Notes under the pieces: model-generated
What the model was told of the DNA's origin: nothing
Databases searched by the model: none
What the model saw: the letters and a program-made list of their open reading frames with translations, nothing else
Position numbers and translations under genes: made by a program
Part shown: piece after piece, positions 1 to 33,907 of the stretch
Numbering within the stretch: the first letter of the stretch is position 1
Layout: each line of letters opens with the position of its first letter
Source of the DNA: Tubulanus polymorphus
Lineage: Eukaryota; Nemertea; Palaeonemertea; Tubulaniformes; Tubulanidae
Assembly (NCBI RefSeq): GCF_964204645.1
Contig: NC_134027.1
Coordinates: forward strand, 9,660,485 to 9,724,484
Direction of reading: 5' to 3'
Length of the DNA stretch: 64,000 nt

Positions 1-66
1 GAAGGCCAATGGCCTTTTTAGCCCACTTGGGACTTTAGTCCCAGCGGGCTATTGCGTTCACTTTTC

Positions 67-113
67 GTCCGTCGTCCGTCCGTCCGTCCGTTCGTCCGTC
101 CGTAGACGGAATC
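67..113. repeat. CCGT-rich microsatellite
   Basis: An imperfect tetranucleotide run of CGTC/CCGT units, interrupted near the middle by a TTCG variant. It lies inside the mobile element at the left edge of the window. Confidence 0.85.
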
Positions 114-624
114 CAGTTATTTTGGGAAGTTTTGAAGACGCTTCAAGGTAACGTCTTGATATTTGGGTTACACGTGTATCTACCCTAGACACATCTTCAG
201 CCCAAAAACTGGCCCTGTCAGAATCAAGATGGCTGACTGGCAGCCATTGTTGTTCGCCAAAATCAGCACTTTTTACACATTTTTGAACTTTTTGAGGGAA
301 ATTTTGAAGACGCTTCGATCAATTACCTTGATCTTTCGGATATATATGAATCCCCCCAGGGCCCATCAACGAAACAAAAATTGGGTCGGTCGGACTCAAG
401 ATGGCCGTCCTGTGACCTTTTTAGTGCCCAAAAATGTTAATTTTTGCCCGAATTCTGAGTCCTGTAGCTTCCTACTGGTTTACCATTTCTCATTGCAATT
501 TGTGATGGGTATTCTTTGGAAAGGGATGTTTTATACCTGAGACAGGTATTTTTGATCAGCCAATTATGACGCAATTGGCAGCCATCTTGGTGTCACCAGT
601 ACTCATTCGTAAGTGGGAAAAAGT

Positions 625-1222
625 TTTTCCACATTATATTGATACCTAAGCGTATTTTGCTACCACAATCAATTAGAAAGTTGTAGCTCATAACGTGTTC
701 TATGATTGTGGTGAGTTTCAAGGTAATTGGATTTCGTATATGGCCACCAGGGGGCGTTGAATAATACAATATCTTAGCATTTCTTTATTATATTCGTACC
801 TATGCATATTTTGTAACCACAATCAATTGGAAAGTTGTAGCTCATGACATCATCTATGATTGTTGTGAGTTTTAAGGACATCAGTTTTTCTATATGGTCA
901 CCAGGGGGCGTTGAATAGTAGAATAACTTAGTATTTCCTTATTATATTGGTACCTAGGCATATTTTGTTACCATGATCAATATCAAAGTTGTAGTTCATG
1001 ACATGTTCTATGATTGTGGTGAGTTTCGAGGTCATTGGGTTTTGAATATGGTCACCAGGGGGCGTTGAATAGTAGAATGACTTAGTATTTCCATATTAAA
1101 TTGGTAACGAGGCATATTTTGTTATCACAATCAATTACAAAATCGTAGCTGCTGACATGTTCTATGATTTTGGTGAGTTTCAAGGTCGTTGGTTTTTGTA
1201 AATGGTCACCAGGGGGCGTTGA
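625..1222. repeat. Tandem repeat, about four copies of a 154-bp unit
   Basis: Each unit runs through TATTTTG-TACCACAATCAATTA, a GTTGTAGCTCATGACAT-like stretch and CTATGATTGTGGTGAGTTTC, and ends in CACCAGGGGGCGTTGAATA. The final box starts at 744, 898, 1052 and 1206, so the period is exactly 154 bp between all four copies although the units differ by substitutions. The first unit is the most diverged at its left side. Conserved length with base divergence means insertions and deletions have been rare. Confidence 0.9.
744..1218 (+). promoter_or_regulatory. Four CTCF-like boxes (CCACCAGGGGGCG)
   Basis: The boxes are at 744-756, 898-910, 1052-1064 and 1206-1218. The first reads CCACCAGGGGGCG and the other three TCACCAGGGGGCG. 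This matches the known core of the CTCF recognition motif (CCASYAGRKGGCR). All four have the same orientation. Binding is an inference: the motif could equally be a conserved structural part of the repeat. The array ends about 140 bp before the transporter start codon. Confidence 0.45.
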
Positions 1223-1360
1223 ATATTGAAATTGTTAGATTGTTGAGCATTTGAAACCATTTCCCAAGTGGGCATGGTGTCCCTGGACCCCTAGTTTTCT
1301 TATTCGTTCCATGCGCAATGATGAAAATAATACACCGAGCTGTCCATATTGTAGGTAGCT

Positions 1361-2734
1361 ATGGGAATTGTGCACGAAAAACAAGACGCCGAGCCACCGG
1401 TATCCGAATCCCCCGGAAAGCGTTGCGTGCGGTCAGAAAAGTTCACCGTGGCTTGCATCAGTTTAGTCATGATGACCGACGTCACGTTGAAAACTTGTAT
1501 AACCTTGACACTGCCGGTTATCGTGGCAAAACTAGAGTCGGTCAACGAATCGTGGTTTAGAAATGACGAATCTTTGCCACCATTTTCAGCCGAGCATCAC
1601 AACGTCGATGAGATGCGAGATGACGTTAAGCAGAAGGTCGCCTGGGCGGTGGCTGTCAACCCGATAACGGAATCGTTAATGAACCTGTTCGCGGGTTTTG
1701 TAGTTGACTGTTTAGGCTACGGGTGGCCGATGGTATTCGGCGCGGTTTTAGGCTCAGTGGGCTCGGTAGGAATCGCCTTCTCGCCGACGTACGGTTTGCT
1801 TATGTTGATGAGAATAATCACGGGCACGGCATGTAGTTTCAGTATTGTTTCCTGCCTGGCGTTTATATCCGCCAAATTCCCGGACAACGACGAACGTCGG
1901 GCGGTCATCTATTCCGCTTACGTAGCTTCTAACGTGGGCAACATTGTCGGCAACGCTGTAACGGGTTTGATGTACGAATATCTAGGAACGGCGGCGCCTT
2001 TTCTGTGCATATCCGGGGTGTTCCTCGTAGATACGATCATCCGATTTATCGCAGTCAGCTGTGACGATCCTACTACTTCCGCTAGGTCTGAGAAGAAGTT
2101 TTCACCCGAAGACTATTTCCAACGTTTGGAAGATCCGCCCATCGTTCTTCTAGTCGTTGTCGGTGTTTTGGCTTCTTTTTCGACCGGATTTTACAAAGCG
2201 TCCATCATCGAATGGGAGTTGCATACGATTCACGGACAGATCTGGCAACTGAGCATCATCTACACGGCATGCATCGTGGCGCAGGTTTTTGGAACCACGC
2301 TTTCCAGCCGCACCATGTCAAAATGCGGTCACGCCCCCCAGCTACTGCTTGGGTTCATCGGCATGGCTTTAAGTTACTTGACATTTCTATTCTGCGAGAC
2401 AGTATGGGCGTGTACTGGACCGGAACTCAGTCGGGCATTTTTCTGCGGACTCGTTTTCTTCGCGATGCCGTCGCTGTGCTCCCTTCTCACCGAGACCAAA
2501 CACCACAAAGGGAAGTACGGAGTCGTGATGGGTCTGTTCAATTCGACGCTGAATGTTGGTGTATTTATTGGCGCTTTGACGAGTGGCCTCTTCGCCTCGA
2601 CCATCGACATACGGGGTCTGATTTTCATCGTTGCTGGGCTTTTGGTGTTCAGTGCATTTGCGTCGGTAACTTTCTTCAAAGTCGAAGGAGATAATGCCAC
2701 TGAAGTTGAAGAAAATGAGAATGAAATATCATAA
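1361..2734 (+). CDS. SLC18-like (vesicular amine transporter family) MFS transporter, intronless
   Basis: This 457-residue protein has the 12-helix plan of the major facilitator superfamily. The N-terminus is cytoplasmic. Helix 1 (about 29-56) carries Asp40, and a short polar luminal loop with an N-glycosylation site at Asn62 follows. The stretch DNDERR (175-180), the phrase YLGTAAPFL (207-215) and the post-loop segment LEDPPIVLL with IWQLS align by eye with VMAT/VAChT proteins. SLC18 members are known to load amines into vesicles by proton exchange; the substrate here is unknown. By eye, Asp40, Lys92 and Arg179 match VMAT2 Asp33, Lys138 and Arg189. The positions of VMAT2 Glu312, Asp399 and Asp426 are instead Lys279, Phe367 and Asn394. 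ATG 1361 is preceded by an in-frame stop at 1352. The whole gene is one exon, unlike typical SLC18 genes, so it may be an old retrocopy or a lineage-specific intronless paralogue. The C-terminus is short and acidic. Confidence 0.82.
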   Translation: MGIVHEKQDAEPPVSESPGKRCVRSEKFTVACISLVMMTDVTLKTCITLTLPVIVAKLESVNESWFRNDESLPPFSAEHHNVDEMRDDVKQKVAWAVAVNPITESLMNLFAGFVVDCLGYGWPMVFGAVLGSVGSVGIAFSPTYGLLMLMRIITGTACSFSIVSCLAFISAKFPDNDERRAVIYSAYVASNVGNIVGNAVTGLMYEYLGTAAPFLCISGVFLVDTIIRFIAVSCDDPTTSARSEKKFSPEDYFQRLEDPPIVLLVVVGVLASFSTGFYKASIIEWELHTIHGQIWQLSIIYTACIVAQVFGTTLSSRTMSKCGHAPQLLLGFIGMALSYLTFLFCETVWACTGPELSRAFFCGLVFFAMPSLCSLLTETKHHKGKYGVVMGLFNSTLNVGVFIGALTSGLFASTIDIRGLIFIVAGLLVFSAFASVTFFKVEGDNATEVEENENEIS

Positions 2735-3037
2735 ATCAAATACGTTCGAACTCGTTTTCTTTTATTTTTGAATGGTAGTGCCATGTAAGATTATTTGGAT
2801 TTTCAATGATAAAAGCATACGGTGCACGTGTGTCTGGATATTTGTGCCGTGATTGGTGAACAGGTCGATAGTTAAGTAATACGCAGTTACGTATTTGTCA
2901 TCCTGGCCGCGAACAACGGAACTCTATCAAATCAAGTATGATGTTTTACCTGTTTTAAGTTTTATTATTGACTATTTTCAGATTTATCTTTTTTATATCA
3001 ACGATGAGACGATTTCTCTATAATGCTGTGGAATGGC

Positions 3038-3043
3038 AATAAA
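3038..3043 (+). terminator. Candidate polyadenylation signal AATAAA
   Basis: This is the first canonical AATAAA downstream of the transporter stop codon, about 300 nt away. It could end the transporter mRNA. AATAAA is common by chance in this AT-rich DNA. Confidence 0.35.
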
Positions 3044-4723
3044 GGCTAATTTTCCATTTTACAACAAGGATCTTCGTTTCACCTCATTCAAATTGTCCTT
3101 CGGAGTGCTCATTAGAGGATTCATCATCGAGAATCCTGATACGAAGCGGGTAAGACTCGTACTCCACTCCAAAGTCAATATCAACCTTTACTGCGAGAAT
3201 GGTCCAACTATTGTAATATTGAAGGAACTTCCTCGCTTGCCAGTTTCATTGCCGCCCGCTGAAGCTCGCGCCATCACAAACGCTGGCTGCAATCTGCCGG
3301 TGAAAAACGTATCTGATTGGCTATAGACTGGTGCTAAGCGGCAACCTGTTCGCTCGAAGGGTTGCGGCCAGTGTATGTGTTGGCAAGCGAGGGTGGTTTC
3401 GTAATAGCTTTATCATTTCAAAAAAAAACTCAAAGACTACAATTTTCATGACATTTCCATTTCAGCAGTTTATTATAATATATTACCGTTTTGTAATAGA
3501 CGTGCCTACATACGACTGAGCCACATACATATATAAGCACCAAGTAGGGGATTACACATATATAATATATAAATATATTTACACAATCAAAGAAATGACG
3601 ATGAATACTATAAATAAAGTTCGTATTCTATGTAATAAGTAATTACTAATACGTAATAAAACGTCGGTAAGCACCTATAATTTGACAATCATTTTGCATA
3701 GGCAGGACACACTTTTCAATGATCATCGTATTAAATAAAGCCTATCACACTTAATAATGAAGCATTTTACAAATAGTCTTTGTTCGTATGTCGCAGTTAA
3801 TTTTCATATGATAAGATGATAATATAATGAATAAATAAATGTTTTCGTTTGCACAAGGGAAAATGAATATAGGTACTACTACTAACGTAAGTTGAAATGA
3901 AAAATACTCGATGACGTTGTAAGCTACTCCTCCTTATAATGCCATCTACATCTTTAAATTGCTGCAGAAATATCTCTTGACGGAGTCACGGCGTCTAGTA
4001 GGTAACATTGATTGATTCTAAGGTTGTTCTCGAGATGTTTCAAAAGGTATTAAACATGCCAGTTGCCTAGCTTTTGGCACTGTTGACATGGAAGAAAATT
4101 CGAATACGCTAATTGCATTGAAGTGGCGCCTTTGTCCGAATGAAAGGTTTTCCGTTACAAGTGTAGAGCGTTCTCAAGGCACGTATTCACTTTTCTTAAA
4201 AGTTTAAGTCTCAATAAATGAATGGCAAAAAGGTCAATTGTTTATCACACGAAAGCACGTTGGTGAGAAAATGAAATAAGAATATTTCATATAGAATATA
4301 CGGCGTTTCGAAGCTTTTCGCGAAAGACTGGTACTGAGCAGCGAGCACTCTCTACTAGTTTGTGGAAGACAGTAATATTGAGCGCAATTTGTCCTTACAC
4401 CCTGGACCGTTATAAAAAGCCTAGAAATGTTTTTTTTTCTTTAATAATCACGATTAGCACCACCAAAAATATGCATATTATGTATAACACGTTGGGAACT
4501 ACTTTTCAACCCACAGCTACCCTTCAGAACAAGGCAATTGATAAGATTAAAGCAGTCCTAAAATCATTGGGGTTGGATGTAGACACTTCAAGCAAATGAC
4601 GCAGTTATTTCGAAGATACGTTTCATTCCAGTTGCAAGAGATTAGCAATAGCAATCTTGCTAATTTCGTTCTGTCGTACGACCAATCAAACGGGAGACAT
4701 AATAACTTCTGTGCGTTTTTCAT
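3044..4723. other. Intergenic, AT-rich; tail-to-tail spacer between transporter and tubulin
   Basis: No convincing gene is seen. A GC-richer patch at about 3060-3370 has a 97-codon open frame on the plus strand (3033-3326) without a recognisable domain or clear splice sites. The stretch 3520-4300 is low-complexity AT-rich. A TTTAAT at 4440-4445 is ATTAAA on the minus strand and could be the tubulin poly(A) signal, about 280 nt after its stop. Confidence 0.5.
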
Positions 4724-33038: not shown

Positions 33039-33320
33039 GTAAAAGACGACAGTTTCTCGACGACTTAAAATGCGTTTCCGTTCCCTGAAACGGTGCAATA
33101 TACTTCAAATGATCAATCAAGAAAGCGTTACATTTTCGTGGAAGGAAGTTTCTACCTGCGCCAGATACTTCAGTTAATCTGTCATTACGTCGTCGCTGGG
33201 GCTTGCTATATCAACGAAATGCGTTTCCCGTCAACATCATCAGCAAGTATCAGCATAGTTACCATGTTTTGCAGCTCTTACAGTATAGTATGACCAAGCA
33301 GTGGTGGATTTAGAGGGTGA

Positions 33321-33425
33321 TTCCCGCGCGAGAAAACCAAACTTTTTGAATTCTCGCGCGAGAAAACCCAAATGTTTTGAATTCTCGTGCGAGAAAACCA
33401 AAAGTTTTGAATTCTCGCGCGAGAA
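33321..33425. repeat. Four TTCTCGCGCGAGAA palindromes at 30-31 bp spacing
   Basis: Copies start at 33321 (TTCCCGCGCGAGAA), 33351, 33382 (TTCTCGTGCGAGAA) and 33412. Each is a 14-bp palindrome followed by AACCAAA...TTTTGAA. The unit length of 30-31 bp is close to three helical turns, so the palindromes would face the same side. The translated peptides are artefacts. Confidence 0.85.
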
Positions 33426-33907
33426 AACCAAAAAACGGGCCAATGTGAAAATTTTTCTATCGTTGCTTTAGCCGTACAGAAAAACTTTCTAGTATGGCCC
33501 GAATCAGCCAACATACAAGTGATCTCATCTCAGGGCCGAAAAAGAAACCTGACGACATTCTTCCTTCTTTTGCTATGCAAGAGAGAAAGAAATCTGCAAT
33601 AGGTACCATCAACTTCAAAACTTAACGTTTGATTCATGATTTTGTTCAGGAGAAAGTCGATGAACTATTCTACTCAAATATTCAGGTCACAAAATATTGA
33701 GCACCATCTATGCCTTTTCTCTATCAGGATTTTTGTTCTCTAACGCAAGAAAACCTAATGGCAATACCTAAGTTTGCGAGAGAGTGATTTTTGATTCCTC
33801 CATGAACAACGGGGCGAAGTTACGCTTTTAGTGGTAAGTAGTTGTACAATAGTACCGGTGTACACATGCGACAGACGACGACCTGTGATGCAAAAAACAG
33901 AAGTTAC

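Follow-up and report, generated by a model that had tools for sequence, protein, structure and literature searches.

The window analysed here is a stretch of 64,000 nucleotides from the nemertean Tubulanus polymorphus. Near its start lies a mobile element with a central array of 154-bp units, followed by a gene for a transporter of the MFS family. Each unit contains the 12-bp sequence CACCAGGGGGCG, which resembles the binding site of CTCF. An earlier note on this DNA had described the array as a set of CTCF-like boxes that could act as a portable insulator or nucleosome-phasing array. The features considered are the following.

15 to 1296, plus strand: whole non-autonomous Helentron-like (HINE-type) element, TTTTTAGCCC...CCCCTAGTT, from blastn against fetched loci
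20 to 50, plus strand: 5' subterminal repeat GCCCACTTGGG (21-31) and complementary inner repeat, forming a hairpin (DNA fold)
66 to 103, plus strand: CGTC microsatellite of the left flank, period 4, 9.8 copies (Tandem Repeats Finder)
622 to 1225, plus strand: central array, 3.9 units of 154 bp, 84% matches (Tandem Repeats Finder)
738 to 763, plus strand: wider conserved block of unit 1, reading ATATGG, then C or T, then CACCAGGGGGCGTTGAATA, delimited by low between-lineage divergence in model columns 116-141 except 122
892 to 917, 1046 to 1071 and 1200 to 1225, plus strand: repeats of the wider block, the copy at 1200-1225 beginning AAATGG
745 to 756, plus strand: CTCF-like core of unit 1, TGGCCACCAGGGGGCGTTG, 25.3 bits with a human CTCF matrix
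899 to 910, plus strand: CTCF-like core of unit 2, TGGTCACCAGGGGGCGTTG, 20.2 bits with the same matrix
1053 to 1064, plus strand: CTCF-like core of unit 3, 20.2 bits, same matrix
1207 to 1218, plus strand: CTCF-like core of unit 4, 20.2 bits, same matrix
1263 to 1273, plus strand: 3' subterminal repeat CCCAAGTGGGC, exact reverse complement of 21-31
1276 to 1291, plus strand: imperfect 3' palindrome GGTGTCC-CT-GGACCCC with one mismatch, read from the sequence and preceding the CTAG end; shuffled sequences fold as well as 1240-1296 does (z 0.31)
1361 to 2734, plus strand: open reading frame of an MFS transporter, 457 aa, outside the element (reading-frame list; Pfam MFS_1, E 5.3e-34)

The transporter reading frame is uninterrupted, and its ATG at 1361 lies 142 bp past the last core, in agreement with the earlier description of an array ending 140 bp before a gene. 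The end of the element is only 64 bp before this ATG, so that the element may occupy the promoter or the 5' UTR of that gene. A separate tandem repeat of 30 bp in 3.8 copies is found far downstream, at window positions 33320-33433 (Tandem Repeats Finder).

The proposal that the array sits inside a mobile element was borne out by blastn with window positions 1-1500 as query against 20 fetched loci, 11 of which contain arrays. Complete copies were present in 8 of these 11 loci, aligning with the window from 15 to 1296-1298 at 93-98% identity, with exact edges that are blurred by T runs. From left to right, the element consists of a T run, the 5' subterminal repeat with its complementary inner repeat, the CGTC microsatellite, a variable segment, the 154-bp array, and a right flank holding the reverse-complement subterminal repeat, the imperfect palindrome and the end CTAGTT. 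The DNA fold of 15-75 reaches -10.4 kcal/mol (z -3.35), and none of 200 shuffled sequences folds as well. Among the eight other copies, the 5' subterminal repeat is unchanged except for one inserted base in L005 and two substitutions in L008, and the 3' subterminal repeat is unchanged in seven, with one substitution in L009. Inspection by eye of both ends of the nine copies showed T runs and no other flanking duplication. The subterminal inverted repeats, the complementary inner repeat, and the microsatellite followed by a central tandem array are features of HINEs, and these three are present here; the array is the central satellite-like part of a non-autonomous Helentron. The longest reading frame of the window copy has 125 codons. 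In the whole genome there are 58 matches to Helitron_like_N, and a search for an autonomous partner in four 10-kb regions among them turned up neither the subterminal repeat of this element nor its unit nor its core.

Among the closest known systems in structure is Cg_HINE of the oyster Crassostrea gigas (Vojvoda Zeljko et al. 2020, PMC7492417), in whose published description, as far as it was available to us, the order of parts is the same as here, including the microsatellite and the variable segment. Its array monomers measure 138-181 bp, compared with 154 bp in T. polymorphus, and its right flank of about 60 bp contains a 3' subterminal repeat, as here, and a palindrome, to which the imperfect one here may correspond. 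The DINE-1/HINE elements of Drosophila and mites, in the portion of the report by Thomas et al. 2014 (PMC4067079) at hand, also share subterminal inverted repeats and central repeats, and they have a 3' palindrome and a preference for T-rich insertion sites, with which the imperfect palindrome and the T runs seen here would agree; in the HINE families described there, about 38-60 bp separate the 3' subterminal repeat from the end, whereas here the distance is 23 bp.

The core CACCAGGGGGCG occurs exactly four times, on the plus strand, at 745-756, 899-910, 1053-1064 and 1207-1218 (1-based), the copies being 154 bp apart. The four same-strand boxes reported previously are therefore real, with coordinates that had been given one base too low. 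Allowing up to two mismatches, the window contains five matches against 0.83 expected, a number reached in none of 100 shuffles. The likeness to CTCF also stands. The CTCF consensus is CCASYAGRKGGCRS, as given in the accessible part of PMC6746451, and in all four units CACCAGGGGGCG agrees with its positions 2-13; position 1 (C) is matched by unit 1, whereas units 2-4 have T there, and at position 14 (S) every unit has T. The base preceding the core (column 122) is T in three of the four window units and in 132 of 183 sampled units, where the human matrix has C, a point against the CTCF reading. As had been noted, the units around the boxes have diverged, with pairwise identities of 78-85%, and the longest stretch invariant across the four is the 19-bp CACCAGGGGGCGTTGAATA (P 0.015 by column shuffling). 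The conserved block exceeds the CTCF core, with TTGAATA downstream and ATATGG upstream. Unit 1 contains an inverted repeat, ACCACAATCA...TGATTGTGGT; none of the three 142-bp stretches that separate the cores folds better than its shuffled versions (z 0.32 to 1.26), and Rfam returned no family at gathering score for window 1-3400, its lone match (E 0.51) being taken as chance.

The repeat, for which the earlier note had proposed a genome-wide search, is abundant in the 268-Mb genome (77 contigs). The exact 12-mer core occurs 4676 times, compared with 4 occurrences of the reversed pattern; 3800 of these cores are followed by the YTGAA tail of the unit and 876 are without it. Exact cores are found in pairs at exactly 154 bp 1188 times, against none for the control, from which we infer hundreds of arrays with at least two exact cores. 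The exact right end of the element occurs 850 times. In 80 sampled arrays, spacing between successive units was exactly 154 bp in 161 of 203 cases. As regards distribution, the 87 places on contig C1 among 100 listed matches to anchor sequences lie between 6.3 and 23.8 Mb of its 32 Mb, and the first on C2 is at 5.1 Mb, so that, among the places listed on these two contigs, the element seems to avoid chromosome ends. The exact core itself is absent from 5.2 Mb of C1 (0.90-6.12 Mb) and is present nine times in the first 0.9 Mb; three 501-base samples from the core-free gap had no N and were ordinary-looking sequence.

A protein that could recognise these boxes is encoded by the same genome. CTCF has been reported to be kept throughout the bilaterians and to be missing from other organisms (in the part of PMC12221973 seen). 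The T. polymorphus CTCF gene, whose presence the earlier note had made a precondition of its proposal, lies on the same contig as the window (C3:3430379-3431720 plus the next exon) and has 11 fingers. The first two matches to the human finger region have 62% and 52% identity, and the next, located elsewhere, 33%; among PDB entries, the host protein is best matched by human CTCF (7w1m, E 3.6e-110). In fingers 3 and 5 the recognition helices (TSGELVRH and DTYKLKRH) are identical to the human ones, that of finger 4 has one change, that of finger 7 differs at three of eight positions, and that of finger 6 at four of the eight, the last being a point against CTCF binding.

The CTCF motif also appears outside the element. 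Among the first ten genome places listed, nine are single cores outside element DNA, where likeness to the element does not go beyond the core itself and brief random matches; L013, one of the nine, belongs to a distinct small repeat that contains more core-like words. The variant CCASTAGAKGGCGC, which CTCF tolerates, has 153 matches in the genome and none when reversed, whereas the disfavoured variant CCASGAGCKGGCGC has one match and one when reversed. Thirty of 100 listed matches to the tolerated variant sit in three tandem arrays, two of them in stretches open throughout; the dispersed count is therefore lower, and still far above the control. At C6:107692-109365 (L115) a minisatellite of 78 bp in 13 copies is followed by one of 112 bp in 6 copies, and the consensus units of both contain the CTCF-type word CCAGTAGATGGCGC; its longest open stretch is 51 codons on the given strand and 130 on the other, it lies near a contig end, and it does not resemble the element.

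The earlier note had asked whether the core is less diverged than the rest of the unit, and the answer differs between individual insertions and lineages. Judged by the refuting outcome that the note had named, a core conserved no better than its flanks, the comparison of insertions counts against the proposal and that of lineages counts in its favour. For the insertions, arrays were picked by anchors outside the core, taking the first 80 of 100 listed places, all of them on contig C1 (the genome has 632); of their 210 non-last units, 183 were compared and 27 were too short. In pairs of units less than 3% apart, the ratio of core to non-core divergence was 2.05 (bootstrap 1.09-3.08), and none of the 130 windows along the unit had a higher one. 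Since such pairs differ twice as much in the core, inserted copies lose it at the pace of unprotected sequence or faster. A second sample was formed by 40 of 100 listed places with the right end of the element, with arrays outside the first sample; 2 of the 40 yielded no recognisable unit. Exact cores made up 201 of 283 units in the first sample and 52 of 114 in the second, which leans towards divergent copies because previously sampled arrays were excluded; at least one exact core was present in 26 of the 36 loci of the second sample with a countable unit. In the 397 units of both samples, two CpG transitions account for 67 of 193 core differences. Among 119 cores with one substitution, CpG changes were the commonest and were followed by a mixture of changes that CTCF tolerates and changes that it does not, tolerated changes not being singled out in these single copies. 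In the bulk of the sampled copies, the core shows no protection at the level of the host.

Between lineages, in contrast, the core is held. The ratio of core to non-core divergence was 0.24 (0.16-0.33) at 14-18% divergence and 0.27 (0.09-0.55) at 24-35%, from lineages that are few and deep pairs most of which are non-independent. When units were clustered into lineages at a threshold of 0.06, which dropped units from clusters with one or two members (88 of 360 in the 14-lineage set and 99 of 412 in the 20-lineage set), the consensuses of 14 lineages showed no substitution in the 12 core columns against 7.8 expected, with 85 in the other 130 columns (Poisson P 0.0004), and a longest clean run of 18 columns (P 0.0026). 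The 20-lineage set included 20 added arrays that had been chosen for a broken core, so that the test on it is biased against finding constraint; even so, two core substitutions were counted against 12.3 expected, with 133 in the other columns (Poisson P 0.0004), which supports the retention of the core in propagating lineages. Core substitutions were below expectation in all seven lineage settings (Poisson P 0.00001 to 0.0075, a range also spanned by four settings of the 20-lineage set). These P values are rough, as they come from parsimony counts on average-linkage trees built from cluster consensuses, and two overlapping loci (L102 and L103) cause one unit to be counted twice.

Both core substitutions belong to a single lineage of seven units, whose consensus CACTAGAGGGCG is exact in five of them, and they affect the Y and the R of CCASYAGRKGGCRS, where CTCF accepts C or T and G or A. 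Other changes do not fit this pattern, and count as points against a CTCF reading. A core lacking one G, CACCAGGGGCG, has spread in two lineages and has 361 exact copies with the tail; of the 20 arrays with this deletion, 13 retain an intact core and 7 have none within the 1.1 kb fetched. Gap events between lineages number 2 in the core against 0-1 across the remaining 130 columns. Three loci of the CACTAGAGGGCG subfamily have a first unit with CATCAGGGGGCG, a change outside the CTCF consensus, and the block is wider than the core. In the subfamily represented by L161, L166, L167, L169 and L174, the last unit is CACTAGAGGGCG and the unit before it has the G-deleted core, with five units in three of the five loci.

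Taken together, we consider it on balance probable that the HINE repeats bind host CTCF and that the copies which go on propagating keep the site, a reading based on sequence comparison. Each 154-bp unit carries one CTCF-type site in constant orientation, so that an insertion brings with it up to about four such sites of one polarity. Host CTCF would bind these sites at least in young, unmethylated copies, and binding may benefit the element, for example by keeping a germ-line donor copy nucleosome-poor and unmethylated; if binding does help, lineages without the site would spread less. Effects on looping or insulation would be a by-product of those copies that are still intact. A bolder version, that this rolling-circle transposon lives by CTCF, its satellite being selected to recruit the protein to the multiplying copies so that these stay open or unmethylated or are favourably placed for being copied, and its dead copies leaving behind decaying sites that can be recruited as loop anchors, is a possibility that we put forward tentatively.

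The block might instead serve the machinery of the element itself, as a recognition or priming site, or serve another host zinc-finger protein, its likeness to CTCF sites being coincidental or secondary. The extension of the fixed block past the core to TTGAATA and back to ATATGG would suit such a function, as would the alternation of C and T before the core, which the human matrix does not favour, and, according to the part of PMC7492417 seen, two conserved segments are common to one group of oyster HINE repeats and a cluster that is otherwise dissimilar. However, the core coincides with positions 2-13 of the CTCF consensus, the host has CTCF, and the motif and its tolerated variants outside the element are far above controls, so that we regard this explanation as rather unlikely. 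It is also conceivable, and to our judgement quite unlikely, that no selection acts at all, the apparent conservation of the core arising from the small number of lineages compared and from a CTCF-like word that the ancestral unit held by chance. In favour of this, the test of invariant runs gave P from 0.20 to 0.02 with 4 to 7 lineages, being weak when lineages are few, core deletions have spread, and the longest run without substitution in the 20-lineage set with its G-deleted arrays was not significant (P 0.13). The shortfall of core substitutions in every setting speaks against it, as does the finding that in closely similar pairs of units this same core is the most changeable of the 130 windows.

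The insulator or phasing array selected by the host, as originally proposed, seems very improbable. Four same-strand sites near a gene would be in keeping with it, and in mammals CTCF sites carried by repeats and other CTCF sites mark chromatin borders equally often, in the part of Schmidt et al. 2012 (PMC3368268) available. However, the core is unprotected in individual copies, with exact cores in fewer than half of the units of the second, divergent-leaning sample, and the period itself is unsuited to phasing. A nucleosome core occupies 147 bp, which leaves 7 bp in a unit of 154 bp; a nucleosome together with a CTCF core of 15-19 bp exceeds the period, and neighbouring sites could therefore not both be occupied around one nucleosome. 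We accordingly rejected the phasing part of the proposal, the period being an ordinary one among HINE monomers such as those of the oyster (138-181 bp, in the text of PMC7492417 seen).

Our favoured reading, that the repeats bind CTCF, has partial parallels elsewhere. B2 and other mammalian SINEs have dispersed CTCF motifs to thousands of places (Schmidt et al. 2012, in the portion of PMC3368268 at hand), as the element has done here, but those are retrotransposons whose binding was demonstrated, whereas this is a Helentron-type element with putative sites in a tandem cluster. The DXZ4 macrosatellite of the mammalian X chromosome (available parts of PMC3218863 and PMC3491370) is likewise a tandem array, and one to which CTCF binds, but has 3-kb units on one chromosome, in contrast to a dispersed mobile element. 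In placozoans, Mutator repeats (Kim et al. 2025, PMC12221973, as far as seen) show a DNA transposon carrying a loop-anchor motif in an invertebrate, with another transposon, another motif and animals without CTCF. CTCF goes unmentioned in the available description of Cg_HINE (PMC7492417), where the T. polymorphus element has its CTCF-like core, and no CTCF-like array is described for DINE-1/HINE in the part of PMC4067079 consulted; within the collection of papers searched, none combined CTCF with a Helentron.

If the reading is correct, the spread of CTCF sites by mobile elements, documented in mammalian SINEs in the part of PMC3368268 seen, would extend to rolling-circle elements, and T. polymorphus would provide a DNA-transposon counterpart, in an invertebrate, of SINE-driven CTCF expansion. 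It would also give a functional reason for the conserved part of the HINE central repeat, and would open to test the idea of a transposon that exploits CTCF for its own copying. The hundreds of arrays with at least two exact cores would then constitute a natural experiment on clustered CTCF sites.
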